Source: Candidatus Purcelliella pentastirinorum (GTDB taxonomy: Bacteria > Pseudomonadota > Gammaproteobacteria > Enterobacterales > Enterobacteriaceae). Taken from it: a stretch of 64,000 nucleotides of DNA. This document shows positions 1 to 54,960 of this stretch, in pieces (position 1 is the first letter of the stretch; each line of letters begins with the position of its first letter). The DNA lies in NCBI RefSeq assembly GCF_003391335.1, contig NZ_CP028374.1, forward strand, positions 62,001-126,000. Reading direction: 5' to 3'. A program made the translations under genes and the position numbers. The notes below the pieces were generated by a model. That model was not told the DNA's origin and ran no database searches. It saw nothing but the letters and a program-made list of their open reading frames with translations.

Positions 1-1170
1 TTTTCTTCATTAGGATGGCCTAAATCAAAAAAAATATTTAAACAATATCATCCAACAAATGTAATTATTTCTGGATTTGATATAATATTTTTTTGGATCG
101 CTAGAATGATAATGATAACAATGTATATTGTAAAAGATAAAAAAAATAAACCACAGATTCCTTTTAAAAATATTTATATTACTGGTTTAATTTGTGATGA
201 AAATGGTGAAAAAATGTCAAAATCTAAAGGAAATATTGTTGATCCTATAGATATAATAAATGGAATATCATTAAATAATATTATTAAAAAACGAACAAAA
301 AATACGATAAAAAATAAATCATTTGTAAAAATTATTAATAACACTAAAAAAAAATTTCCTTATGGAATTAAAGCAACAGGAGCAGATCCTTTAAGATTCA
401 CAATTGCTTCTTTATCATCAACTAACAGATTAATAAAATGGGATATGAATAGATTAGAAGGATATAAAAAATTTTGCAATAAATTATGGAATGCTAGTAA
501 ATTTGTTATAGATAAAAGTAAAAATGTTAAATATTTATCACATAAAAATGATATTTCAATAATAGATAAATGGATTATAAGTGAATTAAATATTATCATT
601 AAAGAATTCGAAAAATCTATAAATAATTATAGATTTGATATTGCAGCTAATAAATTATATAGTTTTATATGGAATCAATATTGTGATTGGTACATAGAAT
701 TTATTAAACCTATAATTAATTTATTTGATGAAAATAATTCCATAGGTACTATAAATACATTATTATATGTATTAAAAATAATACTAAAATTAGCACATCC
801 AATTATTCCATTTATTACAGAATATATATGGCAAAAATTAATTAAATATGATTTTAACAATGAATTTAATAGTATTACAATGGAAAAATTTCCAAAATAC
901 AATAATAAATTTATAAACAAAAAATTAAATATTGATGTAATATGGTTAAAAAATACTATTATACAAATTAGAAACTTTAGAGTAAAAAGAAAAATTAAAT
1001 TCAACAAGAAAATAAAAATTATTTTTAAAAAAGATGATCTTATCAAAAAAAGAATTAAAAATTTAGGTTTTTTTATAAAAAAAATGGTAAATATAAAAAA
1101 AATATTGATAACAACAAAAGATATTAAATCTACATTTAATAATAACATTACAAATAATATTTTTTTATAA
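1..1170 (+). CDS. valS: Valine--tRNA ligase, 3' part (5' end outside window)
   Basis: Class I aminoacyl-tRNA synthetase that charges tRNA-Val in the cytoplasm. The reading frame is open from base 1, so the gene enters from outside the window; about 389 codons are seen. The start of the visible part reads GFDIIFFWIARMIMMT-like sequence of the catalytic domain, followed by the KMSKSKGN signature at bases 211-234 and an anticodon-binding domain (WNASKFV, FRFDIAA-like and HPIIPFITEYIW blocks). In E. coli ValS (951 aa) roughly 395 residues follow KMSKS; here only about 318 do. The protein stops just where the C-terminal tRNA-binding coiled coil should begin, 6 bases before the end of the convergent cysC. 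The family assignment is secure; loss of the coiled coil is read directly from the missing sequence. Confidence 0.97.
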   Translation, partial: FSSLGWPKSKKIFKQYHPTNVIISGFDIIFFWIARMIMITMYIVKDKKNKPQIPFKNIYITGLICDENGEKMSKSKGNIVDPIDIINGISLNNIIKKRTKNTIKNKSFVKIINNTKKKFPYGIKATGADPLRFTIASLSSTNRLIKWDMNRLEGYKKFCNKLWNASKFVIDKSKNVKYLSHKNDISIIDKWIISELNIIIKEFEKSINNYRFDIAANKLYSFIWNQYCDWYIEFIKPIINLFDENNSIGTINTLLYVLKIILKLAHPIIPFITEYIWQKLIKYDFNNEFNSITMEKFPKYNNKFINKKLNIDVIWLKNTIIQIRNFRVKRKIKFNKKIKIIFKKDDLIKKRIKNLGFFIKKMVNIKKILITTKDIKSTFNNNITNNIFL

Positions 1171-40121: not shown

Positions 40122-42494
40122 GTGAGAAAAATATTAAAAATATTATTAATAATTACAACAATATCAACTTTAGCAATAACATATGTAATAATCAATATTA
40201 ATTTAATTTTAATAAATTTAAAAAATTATTCAGAAATAATATTTTATTTAATATCAAAACATAAAAATATCTCAATACATGTTGAATCAATTCAAGGAAA
40301 ATTTAATTTATTCAATCCTTTAATAAAAATGAAGAAAATATTTATAATATATCCAAATAATGATAAAATACTAATAGATAAATTAAATTTTACAATAGAT
40401 ATAAAAAAAACAATTTGTAATTTGAATTTATATATAAACTATTTTAGAATAGAAAAATTAAATATAAATACTAATTCAATAAACTTAAAAGAAAATAAAA
40501 AATTGTTTTTACCTAATCTTAAAAATATTAAAAAAATTGTTAACAAATTTAATTATTTAAACATATCTAAAAGTAAATTAAATATCTTTGATACAATCAA
40601 AAAAGAATATAAAATAATATCTTTTAATTTAAATATTAATAATAAAAAATACTTTTTAAAAAATAAATCAATAAACAATGTATTTAATAATAAAAAAAAT
40701 AAAATAAAAATAAAAATAGATTTTAAAACAAAAATAGTTAAACTTTTATTTAATATAAAAAATAAAATTTATGTTAATAAAACATATAATATTAAAAATA
40801 ATGAAAAAAAAAATTATACAGAAGGTAAAATTAACCTATATATATTAAATATAATAAAAAATAAACAAAAAAAATCAAGTAATATACAAATTAAATATTT
40901 TTATTATAAAAATACTAATAAAAAAAATACATATTTTATTAATATAAAAGATTCGCAAATAAAAATAAATAAGATTAATAAAAAAATAAAATTTAATATA
41001 AAATATATAAATATAAATAAAAAAATTTGGTTAAAAAAATATTTTTATTTTAATTTTTATACACAAAAAAAAGATAAAATTAAAAATAAAAATATTTTTT
41101 TTGAATTATTTTTATATAATAAAGAATTAAAAATAAAAATTAAAAATAATAAAAATATTTATTGTAACATTCACATAAATTTTAATAAATTTAAAAAAAA
41201 TATAAAAAACAAAATAGAATTATCAAAATTAACAAGTAAAATAAATATAGATTTAATAAATTATAATAATATTAATTATTTAATAAAACTTTTAATTAAA
41301 ATAAAAAATAAAAAAAAATTCAATATAATTCCTTTATCAATTAATACAAAAAAAAAAATCATTCATATAAATAATATAATTAGTGGGAATATAAAAAAAA
41401 TAAATATTAAAACCATAATAGAAAAAAAAAAAATATTAGATAGCACAATATTCATTAAAAATAAACTAAAAATATTTTTTTATTTACTAAATTCAAAAAA
41501 TCAATACATATCAAAAAATAATATTAACAATAATAAAAAATGGATAAAAAATATAATAAACTATATTACATCAAAAAAAAATAATATAATTTCAATTGAA
41601 TATATAAAAATAAATATAAAATATATAAATATAATGGGACTAATATATAAAAATGTAATTTTTACTATATACACAAATGAAAATATAATTAAACTAAAAA
41701 TAATAAAAAATGAAAATATTACAGAAATAGCATTTAAAAAAAATAATTTTAGAAAAATTTATATTCATTGCATAAATAAAAAAATTAATATTGATAAAAT
41801 ACCAATAAAGAAAATAAATACTAATAAATGCTGGTTAAAAAATATAATCTTATACATAAAAAATATAGATTTTTCAAATAAAAAAATATCATTTGACATA
41901 AACAAAATAAATAATTCAACTTTTCAATCTAAAACACATGTAATAATAAAAAAATATAAAATAATTTTAATAGGTAATATATATGGATATAATATTCAAA
42001 ATTTATTTAAATATTTAAATATAAAAGTACCAATAAATAATTCAAATTTTTTTATAAAATATTATTTAACATGGAATAAAATATCATTAAATAATATAAA
42101 CAATCACTTAAATGGAATAATCAAAATTAATTTAAACGAAGGTTTAATAAAAAATATTAATGTAAAAAAAATTAAAAAAATAATAAAAAAAATAAACATT
42201 AAACTTATCTTTATAAATATAAATATCATGATAAATAATTTATTACCTAAAAAAATATTTTTTAAAAAAATATTAGGAACAAGTAAAATATCAAATGGAA
42301 TAATATACTTGAATAATATTTTATTAATAACTAATAATGAAAATATAAAAATAAATGGAAAAATTGATTTAAATAATAATAAAACAAATATTAAAACGAC
42401 AATAGAACCCAAAATATATAAATCTATAAAAATTACATTAAAACTATTAATAGAACAAATCTTGAAATTAAAAAATAAAATATTAAATTTTTAA
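40122..42494 (+). CDS. yhdP: AsmA-like protein YhdP, shortened
   Basis: Inner-membrane-anchored periplasmic AsmA-family protein, in E. coli involved in moving phospholipids to the outer membrane. It starts with GTG at 40122; an N-terminal membrane anchor occupies about residues 5-27. It has 790 aa against 1266 in E. coli. Similarity is visible at the ends: the first 120 residues (anchor, HVESIQGKFNLFNPLIKM) and the C-terminal 200 (NTNKCWLKNI for the E. coli RCTECWFWG block, HLNGIIKINLNEGLIKNIN for LNGIIHTQLGKGEITEIN). The middle is very Lys/Asn/Ile-rich and hard to align. Position before tldD is the E. coli yhdP position. It may be functional in short form or on the way to loss. Confidence 0.8.
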   Translation: MRKILKILLIITTISTLAITYVIININLILINLKNYSEIIFYLISKHKNISIHVESIQGKFNLFNPLIKMKKIFIIYPNNDKILIDKLNFTIDIKKTICNLNLYINYFRIEKLNINTNSINLKENKKLFLPNLKNIKKIVNKFNYLNISKSKLNIFDTIKKEYKIISFNLNINNKKYFLKNKSINNVFNNKKNKIKIKIDFKTKIVKLLFNIKNKIYVNKTYNIKNNEKKNYTEGKINLYILNIIKNKQKKSSNIQIKYFYYKNTNKKNTYFINIKDSQIKINKINKKIKFNIKYININKKIWLKKYFYFNFYTQKKDKIKNKNIFFELFLYNKELKIKIKNNKNIYCNIHINFNKFKKNIKNKIELSKLTSKINIDLINYNNINYLIKLLIKIKNKKKFNIIPLSINTKKKIIHINNIISGNIKKINIKTIIEKKKILDSTIFIKNKLKIFFYLLNSKNQYISKNNINNNKKWIKNIINYITSKKNNIISIEYIKINIKYINIMGLIYKNVIFTIYTNENIIKLKIIKNENITEIAFKKNNFRKIYIHCINKKINIDKIPIKKINTNKCWLKNIILYIKNIDFSNKKISFDINKINNSTFQSKTHVIIKKYKIILIGNIYGYNIQNLFKYLNIKVPINNSNFFIKYYLTWNKISLNNINNHLNGIIKINLNEGLIKNINVKKIKKIIKKINIKLIFININIMINNLLPKKIFFKKILGTSKISNGIIYLNNILLITNNENIKINGKIDLNNNKTNIKTTIEPKIYKSIKITLKLLIEQILKLKNKILNF

Positions 42495-50208: not shown

Positions 50209-51339
50209 TCAGCTTGTTAAATCATCAAAAAATTTTTTAACACCATTAAAAAAATTTTTTGATTTAGGATTATTTACTTTAGAAGATGAACAATCAAGAC
50301 TTTTACCTAACTTATATAACATTTTTTTTTGTTCATAATTTAAGTTAACAGGTGTTTCTACAATAACTTTGCACAATAAATCACCTAAATAATTACTTCT
50401 AATAGATCTTACTCCTTTACCCCTCATACGAAATAATTTACCTGTTTGTGTCTCAGCCGGTATTCTTAATTTTATTTTACCATTTAATGTTGGCACCTCT
50501 ATTTTACCACCTAAAGCTGCCATTATAAAACTAATAGGAACTTCACAATATAAATTATTATTTTTTCTTGAAAAAATAGAATGATCTTTAACTTTTATTT
50601 CAACATATAAATCACCTGAAGATCCACCTCTTATACCATATTCTCCTTCACCTGTTAAACGAATTTTATCACCAGTATCTACTCCGGATGGTATTTTAAC
50701 AGATAGTGTTTTATTACGTTCAATACGCCCATTACCATCACATAAATTACATGGATTATTTATAACTGATCCATCTCCATTACAAGCTGGACAAGTTTGT
50801 TGTACAGTAAAAAAACCTTGTCTCATTTGAACTTGACCAGCACCATTACATGTTTTACATAATTTTGACTTTGTACCTATCTTAGCACCACTACCTCTAC
50901 AAACATTACATCTCTGTAATACTGATACTTGTATTTTTTTAGTAATACCAATTACTGCTTCTTCCAAAGTAAGATCTAAACTATAACATAAATCTGAACC
51001 AGAAGATTTATGTTGACGACGACTAGAACTACCAAAAATATCTCCAAAAACATCACCAAAAATATCTCCAAAATCAGCATTAGTATGATAAGAAGTATGA
51101 GAAGAACTATTATTATTAAATGCTTCATGACCATACTGATCATAAGATGAACGTTTTTGTTTATCACTTAAAATTTCATATGCTTCTTTTACTTCCTTAA
51201 ATTTATCCTCCGCTGATTTATTACCCTGATTACGATCAGGATGAAACTTAATAGCTAATCGTTTATAAGCTTTTTTAATATCACGATTACTAGCAGATTT
51301 AGAAACACGTAAAACATCATAATAATCTTTTTTAATCAT
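50209..51339 (-). CDS. dnaJ: Co-chaperone DnaJ
   Basis: J-domain partner that delivers clients to DnaK and stimulates its ATPase. It has 376 aa, the same as E. coli. The J domain carries HPD in [10 protein letters not shown]; a short Gly/Phe-like linker here is Ser/His/Asp/Phe-rich with repeated GDIFGDVF units; four zinc-binding CxxCxGxG-type motifs follow ([32 protein letters not shown]), then the client-binding C-terminal domains. It is downstream of dnaK by 80 bases and probably shares its heat-shock promoter. Confidence 0.98.
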
Positions 51340-51419: not shown

Positions 51420-53336
51420 TTATTTTTTGTTATCTTTAATTTCTTCAAAATCAGCATCTACAACATCTGAATTCTGTTTATTATTTTCCGTTTTAAACGA
51501 TGTTGATGAAGACATTTTATCTTGATTCTTCATAGCTTCTATAAGTTTATTAGAAACTTGAATCAAAGATTGTATTTTACTTTGAATATCTTCTTTATTT
51601 TCAGATTTTAAAGATGACTCTAAATCATTTAAAGCATTTTCTATAATATTTTTATCTTCTAAAATTAATTTATCACCACTATCTTTTAATTGTTTCCTAG
51701 TACTATGCAATATCTGATCTCCTTGATTTTTTACTTGAACTAATTCTTCAAATTTACGATCTGATTCAGCATTATTTTCTGCATCACGTATCATTTTATC
51801 TATTTCACCTTCATTCAAACCAGATGATGCTTTTATAGTAATTCTTTGTTCTTTACCTGTATTATTATTTTTAGCAGATACATGTAAAATACCATCAGCA
51901 TCAATATCAAAAGTAACTTCAATTTGCGGTATACCCCTAAGAGCAGGTTGTATACCATCTAAATTAAATTGGCCTAAAGATTTATTATCTAAAGCACGTT
52001 TACGCTCGCCTTGTAATACATGTATAGTAACAGCTGATTGATTATCTTCAGCTGTAGAAAATACCTGACTATGTTTAGTAGGTATTGTGGTATTTTTACT
52101 TATTAAAGAAGTCATTACTCCACCCATAGTTTCTATTCCTAATGATAAAGGAGTAACATCTAATAATAAAACATCTTTAACATCTCCAGATAAAACTCCT
52201 GCTTGTACAGCCGCTCCTACAGCTACTGCTTCATCAGGATTAACATCCTTACGAGGTTCCTTCTTAAAATATTCTGCTACTTTTGTTTGAACCATAGGCA
52301 TACGAGTTTGCCCACCAACTAAAATTACATCATTTATATTTGTTATAGATAAATTTGCATCTTTTAAAGCAACTTTCATAGGTTCTATAGACTTATAAAT
52401 TAAATCTTCAACTAAAGATTCTAATTTTGCACGAGTAACTTTAATATTTAAATGTTTAGGACCACTAGAATCCGCTGTTATATATGGTAAATTAACATCA
52501 GTTTGATGTGTAGAAGATAATTCAATTTTAGCTTTTTCTGAAGACTCTTTTAAACGTTGCATAGCTAATGGATCATTATGAAGATCAATACCAGTATCTT
52601 TTTTAAACTCATTTACTAAATAATTTATCAAACGACTGTCAAAATCTTCTCCTCCTAAATGAGTATCTCCATTAGTAGCTAAAACTTCAAAAGTTTTTTC
52701 ACCATCAACTTCATCTATTTCTATAATGGAAATGTCAAATGTACCTCCACCTAAATCATATACAGCAATAACACGATTACCTTTACCCTTATCTAAACCA
52801 TAAGCTAAAGCTGCTGCAGTAGGTTCATTAATTATACGTTTAACCTCCAAACCAGCTATACGACCAGCATCTTTAGTAGCTTGTCTTTGAGCATCATTAA
52901 AATATGCAGGTACAGTTATAACAGCTTTATTAATAATTTCTCCTAAATAATCTTCTGCTGTTTTTTTCATTTTCTTTAAAATTTCAGCTGAAATTTGAGG
53001 AGGTGCCATTCTTTTATTTTTTACATTTAACCAAGCATCACCATTTCTAGATTCAACTATTTTATAAGGCATTATTTTAATATCACGTTGTACTTCTTCA
53101 TCTTTAAAACGTCTTCCTATTAAACGCTTTATTGCAAATAAAGTATTTTCTGGATTTGTCACTGCTTGACGTTTTGCAGGTTGACCAACTAATATTTCAT
53201 TATCTTTAGTATATGCTATAATAGAAGGTGTGGTACGATCACCTTCAGAATTTTCTAAAACTCTAGCTTTATTACCATCCATAATAGCAACACAAGAATT
53301 AGTCGTACCTAAATCAATACCCATAATTTTACTCAT
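51420..53336 (-). CDS. dnaK: Chaperone DnaK (Hsp70)
   Basis: ATP-driven protein-folding chaperone. It has 638 aa, the same as E. coli. The ATPase domain begins [17 protein letters not shown] and includes [13 protein letters not shown] and [10 protein letters not shown]; the peptide-binding domain with [17 protein letters not shown] and the helical lid follow, ending in the EEIKDNKK tail. It is among the most conserved and least A+T-biased genes in the window, as expected for a highly expressed endosymbiont chaperone. A TAGAGG ribosome-binding sequence precedes the ATG, and a sigma-32 promoter lies about 85 bases upstream. Confidence 0.99.
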
Positions 53337-53419
53337 ATAAAAACCTCTAAAATAAATTTAATTACTATATAAAAATTTTGTAAATTTTATTCAATTATAA
53401 ACTCTATATGTCAATTTAG

Positions 53420-53445
53420 ATGGGGCCGCTTAATTAAGCATCAAG
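53420..53445 (-). promoter_or_regulatory. Sigma-32 (heat-shock) promoter of dnaK-dnaJ
   Basis: On the minus strand CTTGAT (53440-53445) and CCCCAT (53420-53425) are separated by 14 bases. The RpoH consensus is CTTGAA, a 13-15 base spacer and CCCCAT-T. It is a G+C-rich island in otherwise A+T DNA and lies about 85 bases ahead of the dnaK start. The spacer holds a perfect 12-base palindrome, GCTTAATTAAGC (53428-53439). Implies that rpoH is still present elsewhere. Confidence 0.83.
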
Positions 53446-53939
53446 AGCAAAAACAAAAAATATTTTAAATAAATAAAAATTAATTAAACTAAAATACAAT
53501 TAATTTTATTAAATAAAATATAATAAAAAAATTTTTAAAAAATAATTTACTCAATATACAAGATAAATATATTTAAACTATTTTAAAAAATATACAGTAT
53601 ACTAATTTAAATAATAGTATTTATTTTCCAAATTAAAAAATAAAATAAAAAAACTATTAAAAAAAAATTTATTAAATGAAATATATTTTAAAATTTTAAT
53701 AAATAAAACAAAAATTTTTATATAAAACATCAACTATAATTAAATTTATACATTTTTATTCAAATAAATATATTTATATAAATATATTCAAAATTAAAAA
53801 TAAAACAAAAATAAATAATTTTTAGTATACAATATATTTTTATAGAAAAGATATTTTTAATACAAAACAACAATTATAAAATTAATATTTACAAAAATAT
53901 TAATTTTATTAAATTCAAAATAAAAAATATATAAAAAAT
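53446..53939. other. Gene-free interval between the dnaK promoter and tRNA-Arg
   Basis: 494 bases of nearly pure A+T DNA between divergent transcripts. I see no gene or gene remnant. A perfect 13-bp inverted repeat with a 4-base loop lies at 53878-53907, just ahead of the tRNA; it contains only A-T pairs in its stem and may be chance. Confidence 0.6.
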
Positions 53940-54014
53940 GCGCCCTTAGCTCAATATGGATAGAGCAACAGCCTTCTAAGCTGTAGGTTACAGGTTCAAT
54001 TCCTGTAGGGCGTA
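53940..54014 (+). tRNA. tRNA-Arg, anticodon UCU
   Basis: A complete cloverleaf: acceptor stem GCGCCCT with AGGGCGT (first pair G-U), D arm GCTC/GAGC, anticodon stem ACAGC/GCTGT with loop CTTCTAA giving anticodon TCT, and T arm ACAGG/CCTGT with loop TTCAATT. The discriminator is A at 54014 and CCA is not encoded. It reads AGA, which is a heavily used Arg codon in this A+T-rich genome. Corresponds to the E. coli argU type. Confidence 0.95.
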
Positions 54015-54138
54015 ATCAATAAAATTACTAATTAATAATATATTTATAAAAAAAAAAATATACTTAAATAAAAATCAAAAAATTCTTAAAAATAATTAAT
54101 AATAATAAAACCTATTTAATTATATAGATTAAATAAAA

Positions 54139-54960
54139 TTATTTATTTTGTAAAAATGATCTTATTTTAAAAAACTTATTATCTTCCCATCTAAACATTG
54201 TTAAATACCCCCCCCAACAACACCCATAATCTAAAAAAATTATATTAGAAGGTAAACTAACATTAACTAAAGAAGACCAATGTCCAAAGATTATTTTATA
54301 ATCATTTGGTATAACATTTGTTTTTAAATACCATGGTATTAAATGAGAAGGGGCATAAAACGGATTTAACTTGCACAACAACTCTAATCTACCATCTGGT
54401 AAGAAATACCTCATATTAGTAAACACATTCAATATAAAATTCATTTTTTCAAAATTTATTGATTTAAATAAAAAATCAATAATTTTACCATTAAATATAT
54501 AATCTAGAAAAACATCATAAATACTACTAGATAATATTTCATTTATTGATTTAGAATAGTCAATTAAAGTATTAATATCCCATTTTGGATGAATACCAGC
54601 ATGTGATAAAATTATTTTCTTATTTTTATCAATTTGAATAAATGGTTGATATCGTAACCAATTAACCAAATCAACTATATCATCAGATAAAAATATAGAA
54701 GACAAATTTTCTTTGATTTTAAATTGAATAATATTTAAATAAATTGCGATAAATAATAAATCATTATTACCTAAAACCACACGTGCTTTTTTACCTAAAG
54801 AACGAATATATCTTAAAACATCTAAAGACTTATTCCCTTTAAAAACTAAATCTCCGGCAATCCATAATATATCTTTATCGGGATTAAAAAATACTTTTTT
54901 TAGTAAAAGTTGTAATTCATCATAACAACCATGTATATCACCTACAAAATAATTACTCAT
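54139..54960 (-). CDS. apaH: Diadenosine tetraphosphatase ApaH, with altered active site
   Basis: Symmetrical Ap4A hydrolase of the PPP metallophosphatase family. It has 273 aa against 280 in E. coli. Most motifs remain: GDIHGCYDEL at residues 7-16, LSHAGIHPKWD, FGHWSSLVN and CCWGGYLTM near the end. Two core positions differ from E. coli: GDLVARG is GDLVFKG (residues 36-42, Arg to Lys) and GNHD is GNND (residues 64-67, His to Asn). The His is the proposed general acid of PPP enzymes, so activity may be reduced or lost although the frame is open. It lies 82 bases downstream of rsmA; apaG, between them in E. coli, is absent. Confidence 0.93.
   Translation of the reverse strand: MSNYFVGDIHGCYDELQLLLKKVFFNPDKDILWIAGDLVFKGNKSLDVLRYIRSLGKKARVVLGNNDLLFIAIYLNIIQFKIKENLSSIFLSDDIVDLVNWLRYQPFIQIDKNKKIILSHAGIHPKWDINTLIDYSKSINEILSSSIYDVFLDYIFNGKIIDFLFKSINFEKMNFILNVFTNMRYFLPDGRLELLCKLNPFYAPSHLIPWYLKTNVIPNDYKIIFGHWSSLVNVSLPSNIIFLDYGCCWGGYLTMFRWEDNKFFKIRSFLQNK

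Follow-up and report, generated by a model that had tools for sequence, protein, structure and literature searches.

The window, by which we mean the whole stretch of 64,000 bases analysed here, belongs to the genome of Candidatus Purcelliella pentastirinorum (G000), a single contig of 479,855 bases. Its minus strand carries dnaK and, as the next gene, dnaJ, which is presumably co-transcribed with it. The closest DnaK among the 80 reference loci kept is that of Pantoea latae (84%). Upstream, dnaK is separated from a tRNA-Arg gene by a spacer of 602 bases (53337-53938) with 9.6% G+C, inside a small genome, and genes for ApaH, KsgA and a SurA-like protein lie beyond the tRNA. The spacer may be what is left of a lost gene; long pieces of it are missing from the congener (G001). 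The features of the locus are the following:

50209-51339, minus strand: dnaJ, 376 amino acids (566.4 bits, cut-off 338)
51420-53336, minus strand: dnaK, 638 amino acids (NCBIfam PRK00290, 1016.8 bits, cut-off 648)
53337-53419, minus strand: leader of 83 bases from the -10 element to the start codon, without a recognisable P2 promoter (scoring and alignment)
53344-53348, minus strand: Shine-Dalgarno-like AGAGG upstream of dnaK (read by eye)
53420-53425, minus strand: -10 element CCCCAT, continued by CT to give CCCCATCT, which fits CCCCATnT (motif scan; identical in the congener)
53426-53439, minus strand: 14-base spacer between the two elements (motif scan)
53428-53439, minus strand: perfect 12-base palindrome GCTTAATTAAGC, the first 12 bases of that spacer (sequence reading)
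53440-53445, minus strand: CTTGAT, the -35 element of the dnaK promoter, which is of the sigma-32 type and probably P1 (motif scan; same hexamer in relatives)
53393-53469, minus strand: run of 77 bases identical in the congener, the longest of the dnaK/tRNA-Arg spacer, the next being 24 (congener alignment)

A preliminary description of this DNA had proposed a near-consensus sigma-32 promoter ahead of dnaK, and the analysis bears this out. The sequence CTTGATGCTTAATTAAGCGGCCCCAT at 53420-53445 is an exact match to CTTGAT-14-CCCCAT on the minus strand, the coding strand of dnaK, with 83 bases between its -10 element and the start codon. It combines the two hexamers, a spacing of 14 bases (about 13-15 being required) and a heat-shock gene downstream in the same direction. 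Candidate sites were scored against CTTGA(A/T)-13..15-CCCCAT, with A or T accepted at the sixth base. Relative to the full -35 consensus CTTGAAA, the dnaK site deviates at base 6 (T) and base 7 (G); the dnaK P1 of relatives usually has T at base 6 as well. Within 250 bases upstream of dnaK, the best score is 12/12, a value that 1000 shuffles never approached more closely than 10, and the next-best score among the 38 window ORFs scored is 9. With spacers of 13-15 bases allowed, the window contains one match, whereas 100 shuffles average 0.01, a single shuffle having a match.

The site also stands out from its surroundings in base composition, as had been claimed. Its 26 bases have 46% G+C, compared with 8.0% in the remainder of the 602-base spacer and 9.7% across the 7,781 window bases outside the listed ORFs and tRNA. 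Just 9 of 6,980 non-coding 26-mers reach at least 46% G+C, and every one of them overlaps the dnaK site, which tops the non-coding 26-mers of the window. Retention was assessed in one congener, G001, whose DnaK is 97% identical. All 26 bases of the site are identical there; outside it, identity holds at 400 of 453 aligned positions, or at 400 of 578 when gaps are counted, and by identity alone the site does not differ significantly from the aligned rest of the spacer (Fisher P = 0.10). The G/C positions of the window are kept at 12 of 12 places within the site versus 26 of 41 aligned places outside. The length of the identical run and the kept G/C positions point to constraint on the dnaK site, in keeping with the purifying selection against A+T drift that had been suggested, on a basis of one congener only.

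The ancestry of the site can be read from related upstream regions, in which we sought CTTGAT-13..15-CCCCAT within 300 bases of dnaK. The pattern occurs at 59 of 79 usable reference loci (80 were taken, one being too short) and at 27 of 36 loci of a second set of relatives that includes the congener; with the two regions common to both sets counted once, this amounts to 84 of 113 distinct regions. In an alignment of 13 upstream regions, the window site coincides with P1 of Pantoea, Serratia and E. coli-like genomes; a T-rich stretch precedes the -35 element, and the initial transcribed region is similar. The window thus resembles the Enterobacterales dnaK P1 (E. coli, Pantoea, Serratia) in its hexamers, 14-base spacing, place, T-rich flank and start of the leader, and differs from it in its A+T-rich surroundings and lack of P2; compared with Pantoea, its leader is ~40 bases shorter (83 versus about 125). 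Judged by sequence comparison, the dnaK site is very probably the inherited enterobacterial dnaK P1 promoter.

The window dnaK has no P2, a further sigma-32 promoter that in relatives lies closer to the start codon: the best score in the 83-base leader is 7/12, and a loose P2 pattern is unmatched in both the window and the congener. The same loose pattern fits 72 of the 86 relatives' loci having P1. The 14 loci without it comprise six from genomes that are not reduced and eight from reduced ones, the latter judged by size except for the Westeberhardia locus, which is presumably also that of a reduced genome. Loss of P2 as a general rule of reduction was rejected, the reduced genomes G006, G008 and G341 having kept it. 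A shortening of the leader by fusion of the P1 and P2 -10 elements was rejected as well; the alignment pairs the sequence after the -10 element with the early transcribed region of relatives.

The preliminary description had made its reading depend on the presence of rpoH, and the gene is present in G000, uninterrupted and without stops, at 399.5 bits against a cut-off of 323.1. Its product, 285 amino acids from the start codon, contains QRKLFFNLRKTK, which we take to be the RpoH box. Other genes were scored up to 250 bases upstream of the start codons assigned in this analysis. Ahead of grpE lies ATTGAA-14-CCCCAT, scoring 11/12 (P = 0.008 in G000 and 0.003 in the congener), and ahead of groES lies CTTGAA-13-GTCCAT, scoring 10/12 (P = 0.003 and 0.002, respectively). 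No site above shuffles was found within 250 bases of htpG, lon or rpoH in either genome, or of clpX in G000; rpoD reaches at best 7-8/12 within 300 bases upstream. ClpB was not found in G000, the best match (25.1 bits) falling in HslU. Of the heat-shock genes that the preliminary description had named for a check, grpE and groES have a site, htpG shows none above shuffles, and for clpB no gene was found. Similarly, the picture of the dnaK promoter as a survivor amid blurred promoters is right as to its retention; it is not the sole survivor, since the grpE and groES sites are present in both congeners. Upstream of hslV (L166 and L168, in both congeners), a perfect -35 element CTTGAA, a spacer of 15 and a -10 element decayed to TCTTAT score 9/12; this match, scored without a shuffle test, is possibly a remnant sigma-32 promoter.

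Genome-wide scans yielded few further candidates. The second match of CTTGA-11..17-CCCCAT, at G000:C1:366750, lies inside the rpoC coding sequence and was rejected; a third match, of a looser pattern, at G000:C1:264423 has no counterpart among the hits in the congener. The loosest pattern gives 30 hits in G000 and 31 in the congener; its reversed control gives 25 in each, which leaves only a slight excess across the genome. Of these 61 hits, 30 were classified, 15 per genome: six correspond to the sites at dnaK, groES and grpE in both genomes, one is antisense to the first part of grpE in the congener, and the remaining 23 fall within open frames of at least 80 amino acids.

The relation between rpoH and the dnaK site was followed across the order, where rpoH exceeds the cut-off in 381 of 394 genomes; the 13 genomes without it were picked, among the matches listed, by their best E-values. 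The P values for the dnaK site in this comparison were obtained from 200 shuffles each of the 300 bases upstream. Among small genomes with rpoH, 12 of 13, G000 and the congener included, have a dnaK site of at least 10/12 with P of at most 0.01; in three of the 12 (G006, G008 and G341), the best site is P2-like and not P1. G030, which is small and has rpoH, has nothing within 300 bases that exceeds shuffles (9/12, P = 0.30) but carries a 10/12 site, CTTGAG-14-CCCCAA, 353 bases before dnaK. In one family of tiny, rpoH-less genomes (f24), none of the six has a dnaK site above shuffles. Their G+C upstream of dnaK is 2-6%, and six genomes of a single family may represent one event. Strict co-loss was rejected: sites of 9-11/12, at P values from 0.005 to 0.114, occur in six incomplete genomes (82-95% complete) in which no rpoH match reaches the cut-off. 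The thirteenth rpoH-less genome, G331 (51% complete), was left out of the site counts. Joint loss of rpoH and the dnaK site is a tendency seen in one family, not a strict rule. A single genus supplies four incomplete genomes of 2.2-2.5 Mb, G053, G076, G112 and G095 (loci L224, L225, L226 and L227, respectively), that have no RpoH over the cut-off but CTTGAA-14-CGCTAT or CGTTAT ahead of dnaK; either contigs are missing or the heat-shock sigma factor has diverged.

These observations can be assembled into a model of dnaK expression. CTTGAT and CCCCAT would be recognised by RNA polymerase loaded with sigma-32, the RpoH protein whose gene lies elsewhere in the genome, and transcription of dnaK and dnaJ would begin within the first few bases of the 83-base leader. 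With P2 lost, no other sigma-32-type site can be recognised close to dnaK, so that selection probably holds the hexamers of P1 while the remaining spacer has drifted to about 8% G+C. Together with the grpE site and the weaker groESL site, it probably forms a small chaperone regulon that would be raised by protein-unfolding stress. The identity and retention of the promoter are supported; from them we infer its use by RpoH, its start site and its heat induction. The live RpoH response put forward in the preliminary description would follow by analogy with Buchnera.

Two alternatives concern the identity of the site. The motif might be a chance match within a long A+T-rich spacer, and pattern matches do turn up by chance elsewhere, for example inside rpoC. 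The 0.01 matches expected in the window argue against this, as do the place and sequence that the site shares with the dnaK P1 of relatives, a homology that makes chance very unlikely; we give this alternative practically no weight. The motif might otherwise be a relic, with sigma-70 driving dnaK from A+T-rich -10-like sequences of the spacer, while the GC-rich site would persist through chance or recent ancestry. A+T-rich spacers do supply sigma-70-like sites, 10 of them in 52800-54200, but these are no more numerous than in shuffles (mean 14.6). Moreover, a neutral site of 46% G+C would not be expected to form the G+C peak of the non-coding DNA of the window, nor to be identical in the congener, which renders a relic very improbable.

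A third alternative, the main rival, overlaps the preferred explanation, which concerns promoter identity. Here sigma-32 would use the promoter constitutively, and RpoH would act as a second housekeeping sigma factor without a heat switch, maintaining abundant chaperones where many of the cell's proteins are slightly damaged. Among the genes tested, good sites occur only at chaperone operons and are missing from htpG, lon, clpX and rpoH, as constant use would allow. Against constant use, feedback between RpoH and DnaK is the usual arrangement, and both proteins are kept here, so it could still work. In the literature, sigma-32 is mentioned as an alternative vegetative factor in endosymbionts (PMC3571970), whereas dnaK, groEL, groES, ibpA and dnaJ of Buchnera are heat-responsive (PMC1440324) and the Portiera genes respond modestly to heat (PMC6699477). 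On balance, constant expression is a genuine possibility that we consider unlikely.

Retention of a sigma-32-type promoter ahead of dnaK has precedents. In Buchnera, conserved sigma-32 sites precede dnaKJ, grpE and groESL (PMC3164680). A point against the model is that predicted sigma-32 regulons vary widely between Buchnera strains and are held not to be tractable without experiments; in one strain, 19 of 45 conserved regulon genes keep a recognisable site (PMC3571970). In Portiera, such sites precede grpE-dnaK-dnaJ and groES-groEL, and induction is modest (PMC6699477). The genome studied here resembles Buchnera in being a reduced endosymbiont genome with sites at dnaKJ, grpE and groESL that are near-perfectly conserved among relatives (PMC3164680); it differs in lineage and in that the putative rpoD site of Buchnera was not seen (best 7-8/12 within 300 bases). 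As in Portiera, this is the genome of a tiny symbiont with rpoH and sites before the DnaK and GroE chaperone operons; it differs from Portiera in that grpE, dnaK and dnaJ form a single operon there, behind one common site (PMC6699477). The grpE site of Portiera varies between whitefly species (PMC6699477).

The dnaK site is thus a further instance, in another lineage, of a pattern known in aphid symbionts, and a retained dnaK heat-shock promoter is in itself ordinary and unsurprising to a specialist. It adds a lineage in which reduced symbionts lose much regulation yet keep sigma-32-type promoters at DnaK, GrpE and GroES-GroEL. It also suggests a tendency, testable across tiny genomes, for rpoH and the dnaK site to stay or go together, to which exceptions exist.

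The palindrome in the promoter spacer was considered separately. Several Pantoea, though not all, have a different palindrome, CGCTTCGAAGCG, at nearly the same place, and the spacer of Ca. Pantoea edessiphila has the near-palindrome GGTTATGTAACC. Perfect 12-base palindromes are frequent in this A+T-rich DNA, numbering 124 in the window, 34 of them non-coding. In spacer shuffles (300 each), for a palindrome chosen after the fact, the value is 0.007 for the window genus and 0.023 for the commonest Pantoea form. Most other Pantoea-group spacers give 0.05-0.37, with P. coffeiphila at 0.93 and G021 at 0.68; outside the Pantoea group most values exceed 0.2, some being lower (G018, 0.087). Inherited GC...AAGC ends enclosing A/T bases account for most of the palindrome. 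A lineage-specific second layer of control, in which the inverted repeat was kept while its letters changed, for example as the operator of a dimeric protein or as a DNA shape tuning sigma-32 recognition, is a long shot, and titles and abstract openings in the literature gave nothing on a spacer repeat of this kind.

Elsewhere in the window, 40122-42494 encodes a YhdP/AsmA2-like protein of 790 amino acids, the best stretch of which corresponds to positions 759-1209 of a 1266-position profile. It scores far under the cut-off of that profile, and the gene has perhaps been shortened.
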